Source: Gloeocapsa sp. DLM2.Bin57 (GTDB taxonomy: Bacteria; Cyanobacteriota; Cyanobacteriia; Cyanobacteriales; Gloeocapsaceae). Taken from it: DNA of 64,000 nt. The stretch is taken from assembly GCA_007693955.1 (NCBI GenBank), contig RECR01000066.1:1-64000 (forward strand), given 5' to 3'. This document shows, piece after piece, positions 32,794-63,803 of this stretch (position 1 is the stretch's first letter; every line of letters begins with the position of its first letter). The translations under genes and the position numbers were made by a program. The notes under the pieces are model-generated. The model was given only the letters and a program-made list of their open reading frames with translations, did not search any database and was not told where the DNA came from.

Positions 32794-33996
32794 TTATACA
32801 GAAAAGTCAAAAAGACTTAACTGTATAGGTTTAAAGCTTATTTCTTGCTTCAACGAAGACTCAATAGCTTTGCTATCAAGAGTAGTATCTTCTCCACAAG
32901 CTTTATTTAAAGTTTCCCCAGAGCTTGAGGTACTTGCATAATTCTTAAGATTTATACTAGCATTTAAATCTCTATCTATACTGATGTTGCAGTTAGGACA
33001 GTTATAGACTCTTGCCTTTAATGGCATTTTTTGCCTGTTCCCACAATTAGAGCAAATTTGACTAGATGGAAAGAATCTATCTGCTACGATTAATTCACTT
33101 CCGTACCAATCACATTTGTAGGTTAATTGCCTTTTAAACTCAAAAAAGCCACAATCTGCTATTGCACTTGCCAGTCTATGATTTTTCATCATTCCTGACA
33201 CATTTAAATCTTCAATTACTACCTGGCTGTGGTTTTTAGCCAGGAAAGTAGTTATTTTATGAAGATTATCTTTTCTGATATCAGATACTTTTTTGTGCGC
33301 AATCCCTAATTTAGTAATTGCTTTTTTCCTGTTACTTGAACCTTTTACTTTTTTGCTAACTCTTCGTTGCAATCTAGCTAATCTCCTTTTAGCTTTTCTA
33401 TAGGCTTTAGGATTAGGGAAAACTGTTCCTTCTGAACAGGTAGCAAGGGCATTTATTCCAACATCAACTCCTACTCTTTCTGCTTTTTTGGTAGTGATTC
33501 TATTTTCTAGTTCATAGCGAAAAGAAATAAACCATTTATTAGCTCGTTTGCTGATGGTTACATTTTTCGGAATAACTGTTGGGAGTATTTCGTCACAAGT
33601 TACCCAACCAAAAATAGGTATTTTAATTTTATTGCCTGATATCCTGATGTTTCCTTCAAGATAAAAACTATCTCCTTTTCCTTTTTTCTTAAAGACAGGA
33701 CGCTTGCAATGTTTATGTACCCACCAGTTTTTAAAGGCTGTACTTAAATGTCTTAATGCTTCTTGAGGAGCACATTTACTAACCTCATAATACCAGTCGT
33801 AAACTGATTTGACTTCAGCTACTAATTTTTTATGAAGGTCAATAGAAGATGGTAGTTTCTCGTTATTTTCTAACGCTTGAAAACAAGTGGCTAGTCCCCA
33901 ATTATAAGCGTGTCTGGCTACGCCTGCGTGTTTGGCTGCTAACGTAGCCTGCTTGTTATTGAGTCTCAAAGAAGTTTTAAATCCTACTAGGGACAT
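32794..33996 (-). CDS. tnpB: RNA-guided endonuclease TnpB (solo, IS200/IS605 family)
   Basis: A complete 400-residue TnpB, the compact ancestor of Cas12. The N-terminal helix-turn-helix region (AYNWGLATCFQAL; APQEALRHLSTAFKNWW) is followed by the RuvC active site: RVGVDVGINALATCSEG (Asp), VVIEDLNVSGMM (Glu), the zinc ribbon CSNCG...CPNC and DRDLNASINL (Asp). No tnpA sits beside it, so it is an IS1341-type solo element that could act as a homing nuclease or domesticated regulator. The omega-RNA should overlap its 3' end. A short extra tail of 50 residues follows the RuvC core. Confidence 0.93.
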   Translation of the reverse strand: MSLVGFKTSLRLNNKQATLAAKHAGVARHAYNWGLATCFQALENNEKLPSSIDLHKKLVAEVKSVYDWYYEVSKCAPQEALRHLSTAFKNWWVHKHCKRPVFKKKGKGDSFYLEGNIRISGNKIKIPIFGWVTCDEILPTVIPKNVTISKRANKWFISFRYELENRITTKKAERVGVDVGINALATCSEGTVFPNPKAYRKAKRRLARLQRRVSKKVKGSSNRKKAITKLGIAHKKVSDIRKDNLHKITTFLAKNHSQVVIEDLNVSGMMKNHRLASAIADCGFFEFKRQLTYKCDWYGSELIVADRFFPSSQICSNCGNRQKMPLKARVYNCPNCNISIDRDLNASINLKNYASTSSSGETLNKACGEDTTLDSKAIESSLKQEISFKPIQLSLFDFSV

Positions 33997-43199: not shown

Positions 43200-44048
43200 C
43201 TACCGCGCACTATCGTGACGCGGTTTCTGACGCTTCAACGCCCCTAGTTGCTTCATGCTTCCGCACAAAGTAGAGCTAGGCGACTCAGCATCTATAGAGG
43301 CTCGTTCCAAACCCCTTGCGTAATTGAGCATTACTTGTGCTGCTGCTACATCACGATTAGCTTTATAGCCGCATTTTTGGCAATTATGCTCTCTTTGGGC
43401 TAACGTTTTCTTTTCTTGATAACCACATTTAGGACAGGTTTGAGATGGTTTTACTTTTGTTGTAGGTACTTCAATATAAAAACCTCCTGCTTCTGTAACC
43501 TTATAGTTTATTAGAGATTTTAGGTTACCTATTCCTACATCTAAAATTGAGCGATTTAAGCCTGTTTTTTGTTTCTTTCTTTTACCTCTAGATTTTCTGG
43601 TCATCCCTTTAAGATTAAGCTTTTCTGTAGCAATTAGGCTATTATCGCTAACTATCCTGCTACTAATTTGGTGCTGCCAATCTTGTCTTTGTCTTCCTAC
43701 TTTAGACTGAATTTTACCTAAAGCTTTTTGTGCTTTTCTACATCTTCTAGACGGCTTAACTCCTTTTCTCCCTATCCTTTTTCGTCTTGCTTTTTTAGCA
43801 ATTTGTTTTATTTTTTCTTGAGCTTGTTTTAAGAATTTGGGATTATCGATTAACGCTCCTTCACTAGTGGCGATCGCATGATTAACTCCAAAGTCTAATC
43901 CTATTGCTCCTATATCTGTAGTAGGTCTTGTTGGGATACAGTCAACAGTAATTGATACATACCATTTGTTTTGTTTGAAAATAATTGTACATGTTTTGGG
44001 CATACCCCAATCTTTAGCTTTACCTCTTATGGACATTGTGCCTAAGTG
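43200..44048 (-). pseudogene. tnpB: 3' part (exon 2) of tnpB, interrupted by group II intron
   Basis: The 278-codon frame supplies the TnpB RuvC domain: GAIGLDFGVNHAIATSEGALI (Asp), LIATEKLNLKGMTRKSRGKRKKQKTGLNR (Glu), zinc ribbon CPKCGYQEKKT...CQKCGY and NRDVAAAQVMLNYA (Asp), then a serine-rich tail. The region in front of it (LGTMSIRGKAKDWG) is in frame with the expected TnpB sequence but the preceding 40-60 residues of a normal TnpB are missing in both exons. It ends in the same tail sequence that recurs at 46979-47092. Confidence 0.82.
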
Positions 44049-46711
44049 TTAGAGTCGATGGGTGTATCACTACACCGCACCTCTCTTCCGAAACCGTACG
44101 TGAGAGTTTCCCCTCATACGGCTACTCAACTAGACTGCGTATTGACATTACGCGCTTCCTTAATTCCAGATATCTTATTAGACATATCCATTATAATATG
44201 CCTCTGAATCCAGTCTTGTTTTTTTATCATGACAATGTCCGTGTAATATTTGTAGGTTTTTCAGTCCATGACCTCCACCTTTCGATTTTGGCTTTATATG
44301 GTCAACCTCCAATATATCTCCATCTTTGAAATATAGACCACACCAAGTGCATTTACCCTTCTGCCTCTGTAAAAGTTTCGCAACCTTATTAGGCGTTTCA
44401 GGATATTGTCCTCTTCGTGTAGCCCAGTACTTCCAATCTCCATCATAAGGACTTTTGTCGCCTTTCACCTTTATATAGTCAACACTTGAATGATGTTCAT
44501 CTTTAGGGTTATAGACTTCTAACTTTAAGCTAGTATCTCCTTCTTTGGTTGAAAATACCTTTCTTCCATCAATTCTATGCCAGTATTTTTCATAGAAGTT
44601 TTCTTTTACTCCCTTCGATACTGCCCAACCTCTGAGTTTTTCATATAGCATATGCTCACATTTTGATAGTATCCCCATGGTTTTTGCATCACTATATATG
44701 TAATACTGTCGCCACCCTCTTATCTTCGGATTTAATTCCTTAATTAGGGCAGCTTGTGGAGCTTTTCTTAGAGCTTTAGTTACTCTTTCAATTTCTCTCA
44801 TATGATTTGCTATTTTCTCTTTGGTCGGATGAATGAGCACTCTCCACCCCAGCGGAACACTTCTTGCATTTTTTGCACACTTATGCTTACTCATCTTATA
44901 CCCCTGAATATGAAATCCAAGGAAATTAAACCCTGCTTCTCCATCCTCACTTAGATTTTGGTTCACAGTATGTGCAAGTCGTGTCTTTTCAGGTTTTAAT
45001 TCAAGTCCTATTTCAAGTAACCATGTGGATATCAATTCCTTACATTCTAAGACCACTTCTTTATCTTTATGAAGGACTACAAAGTCGTCGGCATAACGAA
45101 TAAAAGTTAAAGATTCTACTCTATTCTTCTTACCTAGACTGTTTCCTCTTGGTGTTTTCCATCCTTTTGCATTTTCTGCATAGTTTATTAGCATTCTTTC
45201 AATCCCATCTAGGGCTATATTTGCTAATAAAGGACTTATGACTCCACCTTGAGGAGTTCCCATTTCTGTCTTAGAAAATACCTTATGGTCTAATACACCA
45301 GATTTTAACCAAGCTTTGATTTGTTGCCTTAACAAACCTTTATAACCTGCTTTATCTAGTAAGGCATTATGGTTTATGCGGTCAAAACATTTAGCTATAT
45401 CAGCATCAAGAACAAATTTCTCCGCTCCTTTTACTGTGAGTTTAATGTGATGAATTGCATCTTGACAGGACCTTCCTGGTCTGAACCCATAACTCGAAGG
45501 CTCGAATTTTGCCTCCCATTCGGGCTCTAAAGCTAATTTTACCAATGCCTGGAGTGCTCTGTCATACATTGTTGGTATTCCCAATGGTCTTTTTTCTGTT
45601 TTCCCGGGTTTTGGAATCCACACTCTGCGTGTCGATTTTGACTTACCAGTTAACTTTAATTGACCTACGAGTTTCACACGTGCTTCTGGGGATAGAGATT
45701 TAACACCATCCACACCTGCCGTTTTCTTTCCTCGATTGTCTTGTGTTACCTGTCTGACTGCCAGCACCTTAGCTGACCAAGACCTCATCAGCGTTTTTTG
45801 GAGTCTCCTTACTTTACGGACATCCCCACAACGTGAAGCTTTGTATATTCTCTTTTGGAGGCTAAAGACTGTAGTTTGAACTTTCCGCCAATTGACATCA
45901 GTCCATTCCCAGCTGTTCATATCTCTTGCCACATTTTCTGTTTTAGCCATTTACCTTTCCTACTTGAAACTATACTCTGTTCTAATTGCGGAGTACGTTT
46001 GCATATCCTGGGCATTACCCCTTCCCTTTTCAGGCGATACCTGTTAATTCAGGCTAGGCTTTAGCTTCTTACTCCATCCCTCCAATATCTACCATCTGGC
46101 TGACTAACCTACTTGGAATATCGACCATTCCAAGAGATAGATATGGGTTAATTCGTTCCGAAATTTCCATTGATTGTAATCTTTAGGTCTTATCTATACA
46201 CCGGGTCTTTTATAAATGCTCTACATGAAAAAGCAAATTCTGTAGTATTGACCTTGTTCTTTGTTCAGAACGCCAGGAACTTAACCTATATATCTCCCTG
46301 ACTGTTAACTTACGATGCTTCTAGCGATAATTTGTTTCCTAACCCACGAGTTCCGCTTCCTTGATACTATCTTAGTCCCGCTCGATTATAAATTACATGC
46401 TTACTATTCTTCCGGCGCAAGGTTATACTTTGCCTCAGTCTAGCTTTTAGCCCTGCTTCAACTCCATACGTCGTCATCGTTTATGTGTTGAGGGTCTCCT
46501 CTCTACATTTCTATAGGAGGCGCTCTATGCTTTTCCACCAGCATTAAGTGGGTAGGTCTTCCTCTTTTAAGATTAAATCTTCTACTGTCTCCGTATATAC
46601 TCGGTAGAATTCAGTCACCTACATGGAAATTTCAGTTGTCAAGGTTCATTATTGATTTCCCTTGCCTCGTTTTATAAGGTTTTATCCTATTTCAACGAGA
46701 ACGACTCGCAC
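44049..46711 (-). mobile_element. Group II intron inside tnpB
   Basis: On the minus strand the intron begins GTGCGAG at 46711, matching the GUGYG start consensus, and ends near CTAAC. Domain V is clear at about 44095-44126 (AGCCGTATGAG...CTCTCACGTACGGTT), followed by domain VI with the hairpin GGTGTA-GTGA-TACACC and a likely branch-point A. The RT-maturase-HNH ORF sits in domain IV, and about 760 nt of domains I-III precede it. Overall length 2.66 kb is usual for bacterial ORF-bearing introns. The 3' boundary is good to a few bases. Confidence 0.88.
44178..45950 (-). CDS. Group II intron reverse transcriptase/maturase with HNH endonuclease (LtrA-like)
   Basis: The 590-residue protein enables splicing and retrohoming of the intron. 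RT blocks include SYGFRPGRSCQDAIHHIK near 150, VLDADIAKCFDRINH, GTPQGGVISPLLANIALDGIE near 232 and the catalytic IRYADDFVVLHKD near 280. The X maturase domain (LGFHIQGYKM; LNPKIRGWRQYYIYSD) precedes a C-terminal HNH: CTWCGLYFKDGDILEVDHI and HGHCHDKKT. All parts look intact, so the intron could still be mobile. Confidence 0.95.
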   Translation of the reverse strand: MAKTENVARDMNSWEWTDVNWRKVQTTVFSLQKRIYKASRCGDVRKVRRLQKTLMRSWSAKVLAVRQVTQDNRGKKTAGVDGVKSLSPEARVKLVGQLKLTGKSKSTRRVWIPKPGKTEKRPLGIPTMYDRALQALVKLALEPEWEAKFEPSSYGFRPGRSCQDAIHHIKLTVKGAEKFVLDADIAKCFDRINHNALLDKAGYKGLLRQQIKAWLKSGVLDHKVFSKTEMGTPQGGVISPLLANIALDGIERMLINYAENAKGWKTPRGNSLGKKNRVESLTFIRYADDFVVLHKDKEVVLECKELISTWLLEIGLELKPEKTRLAHTVNQNLSEDGEAGFNFLGFHIQGYKMSKHKCAKNARSVPLGWRVLIHPTKEKIANHMREIERVTKALRKAPQAALIKELNPKIRGWRQYYIYSDAKTMGILSKCEHMLYEKLRGWAVSKGVKENFYEKYWHRIDGRKVFSTKEGDTSLKLEVYNPKDEHHSSVDYIKVKGDKSPYDGDWKYWATRRGQYPETPNKVAKLLQRQKGKCTWCGLYFKDGDILEVDHIKPKSKGGGHGLKNLQILHGHCHDKKTRLDSEAYYNGYV

Positions 46712-46956
46712 CGCTTAAGAGTAGCTTGCAATGCTTGACTACCAAGCTCAGCATACTCTACCCACACCTTTTTAAACTCAGGTAAACAATTTTGTTGTTC
46801 AAAATAATCAACACTGCGTCCAAATTTTTGATATTGGGTCTTACGGTTGGCAACAGCAGCATTATATAGCAAGCAATGAAGCTTACGCCAATAATGTAAT
46901 TTTGCTTCCTGAGCTTTATTTGGGTATAGCTGAAAAATAACTTGCTTGATAGCCAT
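46712..46956 (-). pseudogene. tnpB: 5' part (exon 1) of tnpB, upstream of group II intron
   Basis: About 82 codons from MAIKQVIFQLYPN to ALQATLKR, the N-terminal region of an IS200/IS605 TnpB (YNAAVANRKTQYQKFG; WVEYAELGSQALQATLK). The reading frame runs straight into the intron start. Together with 43200-44048 it gives two ends of TnpB without the middle. Confidence 0.8.
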
Positions 46957-46978
46957 AAGGTTTTTTGCTAGACATGAA

Positions 46979-47092
46979 CTACCGTGCACTATCGTGACGC
47001 GGTTTCTGACGCTTCAACGCCCCTAGTTGCTTCATACTTCCGTATAAAGTAGAGCTAGGTGACTCTGCATCTAGAGAGGACAGTTCCTGCCC
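46979..47092 (-). pseudogene. Duplicate tnpB 3'-tail fragment
   Basis: About 38 codons ending SMKQLGALKRQKPRHDSAR and a stop, nearly identical to the tail of the tnpB at 43200. It lies between the tnpB start and the tnpA start, so it is a leftover right end from another copy of the same element family. It is about 85-90 percent identical to the other copy by eye and has no start of its own. Confidence 0.75.
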
Positions 47093-47135
47093 CCTTTGCT
47101 AGACTTAACTTATTATAGTATATTCACTTAGGTAA

Positions 47136-47546
47136 ATGTCAAGCCAATTAAGAAAAAGTTCTCATGCTGTTTTTTGTATTCACTTACACATAGTACTAGT
47201 GACTAAATACAGGAGGAAAGTAATTACACCTGAGATAATGGATAGGCTTAAGACTATATTTGAGGATGTTTGCTCTCGCAATAATTCGCTACTGGTAGAA
47301 TTTAATGGTGAGTCAGACCATTGCCATTTGTTGGTTAATTTAGCGCCTAACAATAATATTTCAACTTTGATAAAGTCTCTTAAGTCTGCATCAAGTATGG
47401 TCATTAGAAAAGAATTTGAAGAGCACGTAAACCATTACTATTGGAAGCCTGTGTTTTGGTCAAGCTCCTATTTTGTTTCTTCTAGTGGTGGGGTTAGTTT
47501 AGATGTTCTCAAAAAATATATACAAAATCAAAGTGTAGAGTACTAA
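47136..47546 (+). CDS. tnpA: IS200/IS605-family transposase TnpA (Y1 HUH)
   Basis: The 136-residue enzyme cuts and joins single-stranded DNA at the element ends. HCHLLVNL near residue 64 is the HUH metal site, HIVLVTKYRRKV near 18 the early beta strand and KKYIQNQ near the end carries the catalytic tyrosine, so the protein looks intact. It is divergent from tnpB. Start at the ATG before TCAAGCCAA; the stop lies 5 nt before the IS1634-like insertion. Confidence 0.94.
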   Translation: MSSQLRKSSHAVFCIHLHIVLVTKYRRKVITPEIMDRLKTIFEDVCSRNNSLLVEFNGESDHCHLLVNLAPNNNISTLIKSLKSASSMVIRKEFEEHVNHYYWKPVFWSSSYFVSSSGGVSLDVLKKYIQNQSVEY

Positions 47547-57971: not shown

Positions 57972-58535
57972 TTGACTAGCCAAATGCCCAATTATCGAAG
58001 ATTATATGTATCTGGGGGGACATATTTTATTACCCAAGTCACTTACCATCGCCAAAAATGGTTATGTTCTGAAATTGGACGAAAAGGATTAAGAGAAGCG
58101 ATCGAAAAAGTACGAGAAAAATATCCATTTTCTATTGATGCTTTTGTGTTGTTACCTGATCATTTTCATGGTCTTTGGACATTACCCGAACATGATAAAA
58201 ATATATCAGTTAGGTTACGATTAATTAAAACTTATGTAACCAAACATTATCGGGATCAATTAGGGATTGATTTAGGGGTTTCTTTGTCTCGACAAAAGCG
58301 AGGAGAAAGTAATCTTTGGCAACGTCGTTTTTGGGAACATTGTATTAGAGATGAGCGAGATTTTGCTTTACATTCTGATTATATTCATTATAATCCTGTG
58401 AATCATGGGTTATGTGATTCGCCTCAAGATTGGTCTTATTCGAGTCTTCATCGCTTGATTTTAGAAGGGGTATATCCCCCTGATTGGGGAAGAAATGAGC
58501 ATATAATAATACCTGATAATATAGGTCAAGAATAA
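57972..58535 (+). CDS. REP-associated tyrosine transposase (RAYT)
   Basis: A 187-residue Y1-type HUH enzyme. YRRLYVSGGTYFITQVTYHRQ near 8, the HUH motif LLPDHFHGLWTL near 61 and the C-terminal catalytic-Tyr region DYIHYNPVNHGLCDSPQDWSYSSLHRL are the RAYT hallmarks. RAYTs cut REP hairpins and are domesticated relatives of IS200 TnpA. Its bordering palindromic repeats fit a REPtron. The protein is complete. An ATG at 57984 (MPNYRR) is a likely alternative start. Confidence 0.92.
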   Translation: MTSQMPNYRRLYVSGGTYFITQVTYHRQKWLCSEIGRKGLREAIEKVREKYPFSIDAFVLLPDHFHGLWTLPEHDKNISVRLRLIKTYVTKHYRDQLGIDLGVSLSRQKRGESNLWQRRFWEHCIRDERDFALHSDYIHYNPVNHGLCDSPQDWSYSSLHRLILEGVYPPDWGRNEHIIIPDNIGQE

Positions 58536-60586: not shown

Positions 60587-60602
60587 CCGCCAAAATTGGC
60601 GG
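60587..60602. promoter_or_regulatory. 16-bp perfect palindrome upstream of glmS
   Basis: CCGCCAAAATTGGCGG lies 77 nt upstream of glmS and over 400 nt upstream of polA. It could be an operator for either divergent gene or a short hairpin; no U-run follows. Confidence 0.45.
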
Positions 60603-60810
60603 ATAAATCATAAACAAGCGAGTTGGACTCCTAACAATTATTATCCCACTTCTGATGATCACAGATGAGGGAATTTAGAGCGAAAATTACAAGCTCTATT
60701 GTTCATGATTAATAACCTATCATGGATAAAGAAGATATTATCTCTTTTTTCGGGTAAATTTTACAAATATTTATCAAAAAAATGGGTCTAAAACCCTGTC
60801 CTGAACAGAC

Positions 60811-61022
60811 AGCTTTGTGCTAGTATTGGTGTATAGCGTTAACGGCTATCTACTGAGAGTCCCTCAGAAAGTAACGGCTAACCTTGAATTGGCAAGGTGT
60901 CTAGCAATAGATGGAAGTATGACTAGTGGTTGCACGGTCAGCCTAGCAAACCTTTTAAAAGAGTAGGGAACTGCTAGTAATGGTGGTTCAGAATCCCCTC
61001 ACCTTGATAGTAGGGGTGTTTT
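60811..61022 (+). ncRNA. Candidate structured leader RNA or orphan transposon RNA upstream of polA
   Basis: About 210 nt rich in pairings: CTGAG-AGTCC-CTCAG (60853-60867), ACCTT-GAATTGGC-AAGGT (60881-60898), and CCCCT (60995-60999) with AGGGG (61012-61016) then TTTT. TAACGGCTA occurs twice (60840-60848; 60872-60880) and TGCTAGTAxTGGT twice (60818-60830; 60972-60984). The last hairpin contains AGGGG, the only Shine-Dalgarno-like sequence for polA, 9 nt before its ATG. It may be an RNA leader controlling polA, or a HEARO/omega-RNA-like element left by an IscB/TnpB transposon. There is no ORF. Confidence 0.5.
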
Positions 61023-61025
61023 CAA

Positions 61026-63803
61026 ATGGTATTTTTGCTGGTTGATGGTCATTCTTTAGCTTTTCGCGCTTATTATGCTTTTGCTACCTCGGGAGGGTTG
61101 CGCACTTCTACGGGTATTCCTACTAGTGTCTGTTTTGGTTTTGTTAATTCTTTGTTACAAGTGCTCGAAGCAGAAAAACCTGACTATGTGGCGATCGCTT
61201 TTGATTTAGCTGAGCCGACTTTTCGTCATCAAGCTGATCAAAATTATAAAGCAGATCGAGAAGCACCACCTCCTGATCTTTTGGTGGATTTAGCTAATTT
61301 ACAGGAGTTACTCTCTAATTTAAATTTTACTATAGTTACTGCCATTGGTTACGAAGCTGATGATGTTCTGGCTACTTTAGCTCAAAAAGCGTCTCAAGAG
61401 GGTTTTCAGGTTAAAATCATGACAGGCGATCGCGATTTATTCCAACTCGTCAATCGTAAACAAGGTATCTCTGTACTTTATCTCCATCGCAGTACGATTA
61501 AAACCGTTAATTATGCTGAATTTCATCCCGAGGAAGTCATCGAAAAACTCGGAGTTACTCCTGAGCAAATAGTTGACTATAAGGCTTTATGTGGTGATAA
61601 ATCTGATAATATTCCTGGAGTAAAAGGTATTGGGGAAAAAACCACGGTTAAGTTATTAACCGAATATGGTAGTTTAGAGCAAATATACGCTAATTTAGAC
61701 CAAATACCTGATAAATTCGCTAAAAAACTGATTGCAGGTCAAGCAGATGCTTATCACTCTCAAAAACTTGCACAAATAATCTTAGACGTTCCCTTAGATA
61801 TTAACTTAGAAAGTTGTGGTTTACAAGGATTCGATTGGCGTAAAATTGAACCTTTACTGTCTAAACTAGAATTAAATACCTTTCGTAGTAAGTTAAACCA
61901 ATTACAGGTAACAGGAAATCCAACACAACTAGAATTATTTCCCAACCAACCAGTTATTCAACCCCAAATTATTGATACTCAGGAAAAATTAACCCAATTA
62001 AGAGAAATATTAACGACAATTGAACATCCAATAGCTTGGGATACAGAAACCACTTCTTTAGAGCCTAGGGATGCTAAATTAGTAGGGATTGGTTGTTGTT
62101 GGGGAAATAAACTAGATCAAGTAGCTTATATTCCCCTAGGACATCTTCAGGGTAAACAATTACCATTGAATGAGGTATTATCATCCCTAGAGACTATTTT
62201 AACTAATCGAGATTACTCTAAAGTTTTCCACAACGCTAAATTCGATCGCAAAGTCTTCTTAACCCAGGGAATTAAATTAGCTGGGGTTGTCTTTGATACA
62301 ATGTTAGCTAGTTATGTACTTAATTCTGAACAAAGTCATAGCCTCAAAAGTCTCACCCAAAAGTATTTAACTAACCTAGAATCGAAAAGTTATCAAGATT
62401 TAAATATCCCCAAGGGAGAAAACATCGCCAGTTTAAATATAGCCACGGTAGCAGAATATTGTGGAATGGACGCTTATACAACCTTAGCTCTTTTTCCTAT
62501 TTTGCAACAAGAATTAGCCGCTATTCCCGAGTTAAATAAACTCTTACTAGAAGTAGAACTTCCCTTAGAGCCAATTCTAGCAGAGATGGAGTACCAAGGA
62601 ATCAGTTTAGATATCCCTTATTTACAAGAATTCTCTCAACAACTAGACTCAGAATTAAGCACAATTCAAAAAGAAGCTTATTTACTCGCTAAACAAGAAT
62701 TTAATCTAGATTCTCCTAGACAATTAGAAACAATTTTATTTGATAATCTAGGGTTAGATCGTCGTAAATCTCGTAAAACTAAAACGGGTTATTCTACAGA
62801 CCATGCTACTTTAGAAAAGTTACAAGGTGACCATCCAATTATAGACCAAATTTTGAGTTATCGTACCCTAGCTAAACTTAAATCTACCTACGTTGACGCC
62901 TTACCATTACTAGTTAGAAAAGATACAGGACGTGTACATACTAACTTTAATCAAACTAAGACCTCTACAGGTAGATTATCTTCTTCTAATCCTAATTTAC
63001 AAAATATCCCTATTCGTACCGCTTTTTCTCGTCAAATTCGTCGCGCGTTTATACCCCAAAGGGATTGGTTATTAGTAAGTGCAGATTATTCCCAAATAGA
63101 GTTAAGAATACTCGCCCATTTAAGTCAAGAAACTCTCTTAGTCGAAGCTTATCAAAATAATCAAGATGTCCATACTTTAACAGCACAAATTTTATTAGAA
63201 AAACCCGATATTAGTCCAGAAGAAAGACGTTTAGGTAAGATTATTAATTTTGGGGTAATTTATGGTATGGGTGCGCAAAAATTCGCTAAAGAAGCAGGAG
63301 TTAGCGCCTCAGAGGGTAAACAATTTATTGATAGATATCGTCAAAGATATTCTCGGGTTTTTACTTATTTAGAGACTGTGAAAAAACAAGCGATCGCCTC
63401 TGGTTATGTTACTACTATTTTAGGAAGAAGACGCTATTTTAATTTTAGTAGTGATGATCTGCAACAATTACGGGGTACACCTGCTAATTTAATTAATCTA
63501 GATCAACTAAAGATTAACTACGCTGATAATCAGTTACTCAGGGCTGCAGCTAATGCACCTATTCAGGGTTCAAGTGCTGATATTATTAAAATGGCGATGA
63601 TTAATCTCGACAAAATCTTAGCTAATTATCAAGGACAATTATTATTACAAGTTCATGATGAATTAATTTTAGAAGTACCCCGACAAGAATGGGAAGAGTT
63701 ACAACCACAACTTAAATCAACTATGGAAAACGTAGTTAAGTTATCAATTCCTTTAGTAGTAAATATTCATGGGAGTAAGAATTGGATGGATTTCAAGACT
63801 TGA
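61026..63803 (+). CDS. polA: DNA polymerase I
   Basis: A 925-residue repair and Okazaki-fragment polymerase. Residues 1-290 are the 5'-nuclease (VDGHSLAFRAYYAFA; MTGDRDLFQL; GDKSDNIPGVKGIGEKTT). Residues 320-500 are a 3'-5' exonuclease with active acidic residues (IAWDTETTSLEP; FHNAKFDRKVF; YCGMDAYTTLALF). Residues 520-925 are the A-family polymerase: ADYSQIELRILAHLS, GKIINFGVIYGMG, and VHDELILEVP with catalytic Asp. Proofreading thus appears functional. The ATG at 61026 has AGGGG 9 nt upstream inside a hairpin. Confidence 0.97.
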   Translation: MVFLLVDGHSLAFRAYYAFATSGGLRTSTGIPTSVCFGFVNSLLQVLEAEKPDYVAIAFDLAEPTFRHQADQNYKADREAPPPDLLVDLANLQELLSNLNFTIVTAIGYEADDVLATLAQKASQEGFQVKIMTGDRDLFQLVNRKQGISVLYLHRSTIKTVNYAEFHPEEVIEKLGVTPEQIVDYKALCGDKSDNIPGVKGIGEKTTVKLLTEYGSLEQIYANLDQIPDKFAKKLIAGQADAYHSQKLAQIILDVPLDINLESCGLQGFDWRKIEPLLSKLELNTFRSKLNQLQVTGNPTQLELFPNQPVIQPQIIDTQEKLTQLREILTTIEHPIAWDTETTSLEPRDAKLVGIGCCWGNKLDQVAYIPLGHLQGKQLPLNEVLSSLETILTNRDYSKVFHNAKFDRKVFLTQGIKLAGVVFDTMLASYVLNSEQSHSLKSLTQKYLTNLESKSYQDLNIPKGENIASLNIATVAEYCGMDAYTTLALFPILQQELAAIPELNKLLLEVELPLEPILAEMEYQGISLDIPYLQEFSQQLDSELSTIQKEAYLLAKQEFNLDSPRQLETILFDNLGLDRRKSRKTKTGYSTDHATLEKLQGDHPIIDQILSYRTLAKLKSTYVDALPLLVRKDTGRVHTNFNQTKTSTGRLSSSNPNLQNIPIRTAFSRQIRRAFIPQRDWLLVSADYSQIELRILAHLSQETLLVEAYQNNQDVHTLTAQILLEKPDISPEERRLGKIINFGVIYGMGAQKFAKEAGVSASEGKQFIDRYRQRYSRVFTYLETVKKQAIASGYVTTILGRRRYFNFSSDDLQQLRGTPANLINLDQLKINYADNQLLRAAANAPIQGSSADIIKMAMINLDKILANYQGQLLLQVHDELILEVPRQEWEELQPQLKSTMENVVKLSIPLVVNIHGSKNWMDFKT

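Follow-up and report, generated by a model that had tools for sequence, protein, structure and literature searches.

What stands directly in front of polA, the gene for DNA polymerase I, in Gloeocapsa sp. DLM2.Bin57? A preliminary description of positions 60811-61025 of the window, the whole 64,000-nucleotide stretch that was analysed, saw a structured RNA candidate and set two readings side by side, a cis-regulatory leader of polA and an orphan guide RNA of an IscB or TnpB transposon. Judged from an empty site and from further copies, the segment 60775-61025 belongs to a dispersed family of protein-less IS200/IS605-type elements, of which it is one copy. The locus is composed as follows.

60770..60774 (+): target site TTTAT; TTAT directly precedes 14 of 15 full copies, and the empty site in the same-genus genome G002 reads TTTAT/ATGG
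60775..61025 (+): complete tnpB-less IS200/IS605-type mini-element, 251 bp, with boundaries from the empty site and 14 other full copies
60784..60811 (+): left-end hairpins GGGTCTAAAACCC and TGTCC..GACA, kept in copies and shared with the left ends of further tnpB elements from cyanobacteria
60818..60826 (+): probable extended -10 promoter TGCTAGTAT, represented by TGNTANNAT at a fixed distance in relatives
60833..61025 (+): omega-RNA scaffold with helices P1-P7 and right-end hairpin, from consensus structure and covariation
60833..60849 (+): helix P1
60853..60867 (+): helix P2
60881..60898 (+): helix P3
60899..60912 (+): helix P4
60920..60940 (+): helix P5
60941..60968 (+): helix P6
60969..60987 (+): helix P7
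60994..61016 (+): right-end hairpin of the omega-RNA
60994..61025 (+): right end, hairpin CCCCT..AGGGG and then TTTTCAA, the scaffold 3' end
61026..61045 (+): guide position ATGGTATTTTTGCTGGTTGA, the first polA codons and the flank directly 3' of the right end
61026..63803 (+): polA, 925 aa, intact, the host gene beside the insertion

The extent of the element follows from the comparison with G002, in which TTTACAAATATTTAT runs directly into ATGGTC, whereas the window carries TTTACAAATATTTAT, the element and then ATGGTA. The 240-bp flanks of the two genomes are identical at 192 of 240 positions on the left (80%) and 210 of 240 on the right (87.5%), and at the junction TTTAT/ATG no base was duplicated and none was lost on insertion. 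Insertion without target duplication or base loss is the IS200/IS605 mode. The empty site thus defines the span 60775-61025, TTTAT as the left target and a right end abutting the polA start codon; of the boundaries first proposed, the end at 61025 holds, whereas the start at 60811 has to be moved to 60775, as the empty site and the other copies agree. In the empty site, TTTAT at 60770-60774 would serve the guide as its TAM. The element ends, CAAAAAAATG and GTTTTCAA, show no terminal inverted repeats, and the conserved hairpins of the left and right ends are subterminal. The 15 full copies contain no coding capacity for a transposase, with longest stop-free frames of 32-58 codons. No tnpB is present in cis, the 251 bp being free of any ORF with polA directly 3', and the RNA is for this reason termed a tnpB-less omega-RNA.

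A BLAST search with positions 60770-61030 as the query, covering the own genome and other genomes of the order, shows that the element is dispersed, and the check proposed earlier, for the same RNA at other genomic places, gave a positive result: the own genome holds decayed copies and other genomes hold full ones. The partial copies in the own genome are a 97-bp piece on contig C8 and a copy on C136 with a deleted core and both ends kept. The 15 full copies are distributed over seven genomes, measure 251-279 bp, have unrelated flanks and end in TCAA in 15 of 15 cases. The element occurs beside unrelated genes in several cyanobacterial genera; hosts of the orphan form include Crocosphaera watsonii WH 8501, two Crocosphaera metagenome-assembled genomes (MAGs) and one Prochloron MAG, and one Prochloron genome shows near-identical copies at five loci. 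In a class-wide sample, strong matches are confined to this order; the plasmid collection gave 0 matches, and viral contigs gave 0 matches to the orphan core pattern. Two Prochloron copies (L110 120-397 and L111 207-485) have ∼25 additional bp within the left-end hairpin with the remainder conserved, which indicates that this hairpin tolerates insertions. A long perfect hairpin, TTTAGCGCAGTCCCCATCTAAAAT..ATTTTAGATGGGGACTGCGCTAAA, lies ∼100 bp from another orphan omega-RNA (L107 597-650).

The kinship of the RNA was determined with R1, a covariance model built on the 164 positions at the 3' side, which was searched in 391 genomes of the order. R1 matches the tnpB-less copies and, in about ten genomes, the 3' ends of tnpB genes, with E values of 8e-7 to 3e-17 for the tnpB-linked RNAs in local search. 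There, the matched RNA extends over the right end and the final ∼50 codons of tnpB ORFs, most of them 460-520 codons long (∼480 aa). Linked RNAs were found in G302, G159, G020, G041, G064, G014, G098, G294, G346, G323 and G326, as well as in G025, whose tnpB lies in pieces at contig ends. A representative TnpB (L127) passes for all three of the Pfam families OrfB_IS605, Cas12f1-like_TNB and HTH_OrfB_IS605, and a relic frame in the window, YLLRVPQKVTANLEL, resembles the TnpB C terminus SKLLGVTQEVTAKSEL. The layout GAATC-hairpin-..TCAA is conserved across all copies and recurs in the tnpB elements; the scaffold 3' end coincides with the element end TCAA, beyond which the flank is variable, as befits a guide position. 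In ISDra2, the tnpB 3' end together with the right end gives rise to the omega-RNA, and flanking DNA supplies the guide (PMC8612924, PMC10097598). By this homology, the RNA of the element is a TnpB omega-RNA related to the RNA at the 3' ends of one particular family of tnpB genes. Next to members of that family (L154, L155, L156, L158 and L160), a divergent small ORF resembling ribbon-helix-helix (CopG-like) proteins lies just upstream of tnpB and is a possible accessory gene.

Alignment A1, comprising 13 element copies, gives a consensus with P1-P7 between the end hairpins. Across its 48 internal pairs, 97.1% of the cells are paired, and both sides are changed in 17 pairs. These values are not reached in any of 500 shuffles, and sliding the partner reduces pairing to 33-47%; because the consensus was built from the same sequences, pairing is favoured over these slid controls, and the double changes provide the independent support. 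Covariation across relatives, on which the preliminary description had made its reading depend, is hence found far above the controls. In single-sequence folding, the window copy is no more stable than its shuffles (z = 0.22) and two related copies reach z = -4.2 and -3.0, so that the claim of structure rests on the relatives. Within its group, the window copy has diverged furthest, scoring 134 bits compared to 146-198, and its P7 and right-end helices are weakened. Read from the alignment, the RNA of the element is structured and has been kept so by compensatory changes in a clade without tnpB. The duplicated blocks that had been pointed out are indeed there, TAACGGCTA at 60840-60848 and 60872-60880 and the pair TGCTAGTATTGGT from 60818 and TGCTAGTAATGGT at 60972-60984, and carry no evident meaning: they are unconserved, the matching positions in relatives being the -10 motif on one side and helix P7 on the other. 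Since they fall into such unrelated parts, they look coincidental, and an origin by tandem duplication was rejected for the same lack of conservation.

When 24 distinct orphan RNAs and 18 tnpB-linked ones are placed in one tree, 23 of the orphans share a single clade (support 0.943), and the 391 genomes yielded no tnpB-linked RNA inside it. The one orphan outside it, L122, falls among the tnpB-linked RNAs and probably represents a tnpB element in decay. The tree indicates that the tnpB-less copies are one lineage, spanning several families, and not repeated accidents. An identical 125-nt RNA-like unit with a TnpB-type right end and no tnpB ORF directly upstream occurs in L136, L138 and L139 (1501-1625); together with L082-L084 and L088, it suggests further tnpB-less omega-RNA families. 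The orphan elements show at least three kinds of right end. The left end of the main group, GGGTTTAAAACCC, precedes unrelated tnpB genes in other genomes and resembles another IS200/IS605 lineage, in contrast to the cognate tnpB elements, which have left ends unlike the orphan's and a partly different right-end hairpin. The element therefore looks composite, with ends from one IS lineage and the guide RNA from another, and its TnpA and TnpB partners may differ.

The left end also carries a candidate promoter. The motif TGNTANNAT is located 50-52 nt before the model start, 7-10 nt before P1, in 19 of 21 main-group orphans, varies within this group only at permissive positions of the -10 hexamer, and is kept even in the G064 copies despite their different left end. 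At the equivalent spot, 0 of 17 tnpB-linked RNAs has it, and tnpB coding sequence is found there; it is also missing in four outlying orphans. A generic sigma-70 scan passes over TGCTAGTAT because of the lack of a -35 box, so that the motif is assigned by comparison. A dedicated omega-RNA promoter in the left end is likely, and the distance from the motif would place the 5' end of the omega-RNA at P1.

Taken together, the locus is very probably a protein-less IS200/IS605-type mini-element that consists of a hairpin left end with promoter, a TnpB omega-RNA and a right end, would be moved and used in trans, and is probably present here as a relic. Mobilization in trans would be carried out by a Y1 transposase (TnpA). 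The left end would transcribe the omega-RNA from the extended -10 promoter, with the first ∼16-20 nt of flanking DNA as the guide. Where a TnpB works, the orphan omega-RNA would load it in trans, and retention of the element would follow from cleavage of empty donor or sister sites by this TnpB.

The distribution of possible partners differs between the host genomes. Several fresh orphan copies and a cognate TnpB coexist in G025, G294, G323, G346 and G064, the TnpB of G025 showing about 84% identity to the query, in pieces; G014 and G098 have single orphan copies and likewise a cognate TnpB, whereas G329 has the orphan and no TnpB above 34% identity. In the own genome (G000), the sole cognate tnpB is N-truncated and begins after the RuvC-I aspartate (C89:15883-16662), which makes the window copy probably a relic. 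The guide RNA without its nuclease, foreseen for a transposon origin, accordingly applies in cis and, for this genome, also in trans. A candidate mobilizer is the intact Y1 TnpA gene at 47136-47546 (+) in the window. It belongs to an IS605-type element at 43335-47546, whose divergent tnpB (46687-46989 and 43335-43526, -) is interrupted by a group II intron (RF00029 at 44048-44126). C132 (L011) carries another tnpB divided by an intron in a similar way, and in L143, L145 and L152 the orphan omega-RNAs are immediately preceded by intron-type maturases; such elements, IS605-type and orphan alike, seem to be targets of group II introns. A weak Y1_Tnp protein of 187 aa, encoded at 57972-58535 and 2.2 kb from the insertion, resembles a REP-associated tyrosine transposase. 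In the window (32947-33147) and on C80 of the own genome (G000:C80:23165-23362), 401-codon TnpB frames are preceded by sequence like the end of a serine recombinase gene, which suggests IS607-type elements.

A stronger form of the preferred reading, with about an even chance of being right, regards the long-lived lineage of ends, dedicated promoter and TnpB guide RNA as a double parasite, borrowing TnpA for moving and TnpB for erasing empty sites. The borrowed TnpB would then be encoded elsewhere, within different transposon ends.

The most serious rival takes the element as passive debris, a PATE- or MITE-like deletion derivative moved by TnpA in which the omega-RNA is a hitchhiker without trans function and the structure is kept for the DNA hairpins of transposition. 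Gene-less PATEs are known from IS605-type transposons (PMC3119063), and G000 and G329 have no intact cognate TnpB. Although TnpA requires hairpins at the ends, covariation is seen in the internal helices P1-P7, and P7 of the window copy contains G-U pairs, which are well tolerated only in RNA. The promoter motif at a fixed distance and the monophyly of the tnpB-less lineage across several families also speak against debris, which is thus an unlikely explanation.

A second rival holds that the segment is a cis-regulatory leader of polA whose final hairpin masks the ribosome-binding site and thereby regulates the gene. The hairpins it builds on are real: AGGGG at 61012-61016, in the CCCCT..AGGGG hairpin, lies 9 nt before the polA ATG (61026), and the insertion does put this hairpin into the polA leader. 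The same hairpin, with AGGGG as its 3' arm, is the transposon right end and recurs at unrelated genes. The sequence is absent before polA in all 29 other genomes of the order that were compared (G001 and G002 of the same genus and 27 others) and dispersed beside unrelated genes, so that the proposed leader is unsupported. The masking also fails, since the element-free same-genus genomes (n = 2) show no Shine-Dalgarno sequence just before polA; with the native genus polA starting without one, there is nothing for the hairpin to hide, and any effect is incidental. As an evolved function, the leader is already contradicted, and the reading is very improbable. What the insertion most likely does to polA is to lengthen the leader by 251 nt and to add a candidate extra promoter and the AGGGG hairpin. 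Between the divergent glmS and polA, a block at 60589-60735, AATCATAAACAAGCGAGTTGGACTCCTAAC..ATCCCACTTCTGAT..TCACAGATG.., is strongly conserved in three same-genus genomes (L020-L022). It shows no Rfam match and could represent either a small RNA or the promoter or leader native to polA (TATCAT at 60718-60723).

A domesticated guide, in which the omega-RNA and a nuclease-dead, TldR-like TnpB regulate polA or another gene, is suggested by the guide position ATGGTATTTTTGCTGG, which coincides with the polA start, and by the TnpB fragment of the own genome, which begins just after the RuvC-I aspartate. The guide length of 61026-61045 is set by analogy with ISDra2 (PMC8612924). The own genome contains no site elsewhere in which TTAT precedes the window guide, as would follow from the presence of the element in every copy of the chromosome; the TnpB fragment lacks the N-terminal half, and the window RNA is degrading, all of which makes this extremely unlikely. 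An IscB omega-RNA of the HEARO type, which the preliminary description had suggested as another transposon-borne guide RNA, can practically be discounted, as HEARO (RF02033) has no match in the window or genome at E values up to 10 and both the guide-side geometry (right end, 3') and the homology are those of TnpB; the orphan omega-RNA that had been supposed to have landed before polA is upheld in its TnpB version only. Searches with all Rfam families gave none at the gathering score in the window and none inside related copies, so that no unrelated housekeeping RNA is matched. A sub-threshold hit to DUF805b at 60948-60969 (18.9 bits compared to 35.6 needed) was treated as chance.

Retention by TnpB is thought to act in cis, the same element encoding both TnpB and its guide RNA. 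If the preferred reading of a mini-element used in trans is true, guide RNAs can spread alone by using TnpB in trans; they would parallel MITEs at the level of RNA and might represent a step toward guides that are encoded separately, as in CRISPR. Such use by TnpB in trans, which the sequences suggest, is directly testable in Crocosphaera watsonii WH 8501, which is in culture and contains both orphan copies and a cognate TnpB. The element can also land exactly at a start codon, where the guide and a housekeeping mRNA coincide.

Among known systems, stand-alone IscB omega-RNAs, loci without an adjacent nuclease gene, were reportedly described by Altae-Tran in 2021. The element shares with them a guide RNA locus without an adjoining nuclease gene and differs from IscB/HEARO RNAs, which have the guide at the 5' side, in being TnpB-type and unrelated in sequence. 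Transposase-free IS605 derivatives, the PATEs (PMC3119063), and omega-RNAs are already known; the open-licence papers searched hold no report of an element made up of a TnpB omega-RNA alone with its own promoter. Compared to the PATEs of Haloquadratum, the element is likewise transposase-free, with near-terminal palindromes as in IS605 and neither target duplication nor inverted repeats (PMC3119063). Descriptions of PATEs give fused termini or degenerate cores (PMC3119063), whereas in the element an omega-RNA with covarying helices and a promoter motif are preserved. With the ISDra2-type TnpB omega-RNA or reRNA (PMC8612924, PMC10097598), it has in common a scaffold ending at the right end with GAATC-hairpin..TCAA, a guide position in the flanking DNA, a TAM-like target before the left end and homology to the RNA of the tnpB 3' end. 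Opposite the terminal UCA stands a conserved UGGA, ∼112 nt upstream of the 3' end, that may correspond to the ISDra2 pseudoknot. In contrast to the ISDra2 type, the element has no tnpB in cis, forms a separate clade and would use its own putative promoter rather than processing from tnpB mRNA. TldR guide RNAs indicate that TnpB-family guide RNAs can be uncoupled from transposition (PMC13418256); the element resembles them in carrying a guide RNA of that family and differs from them in having neither a nearby TldR gene nor a remaining target.
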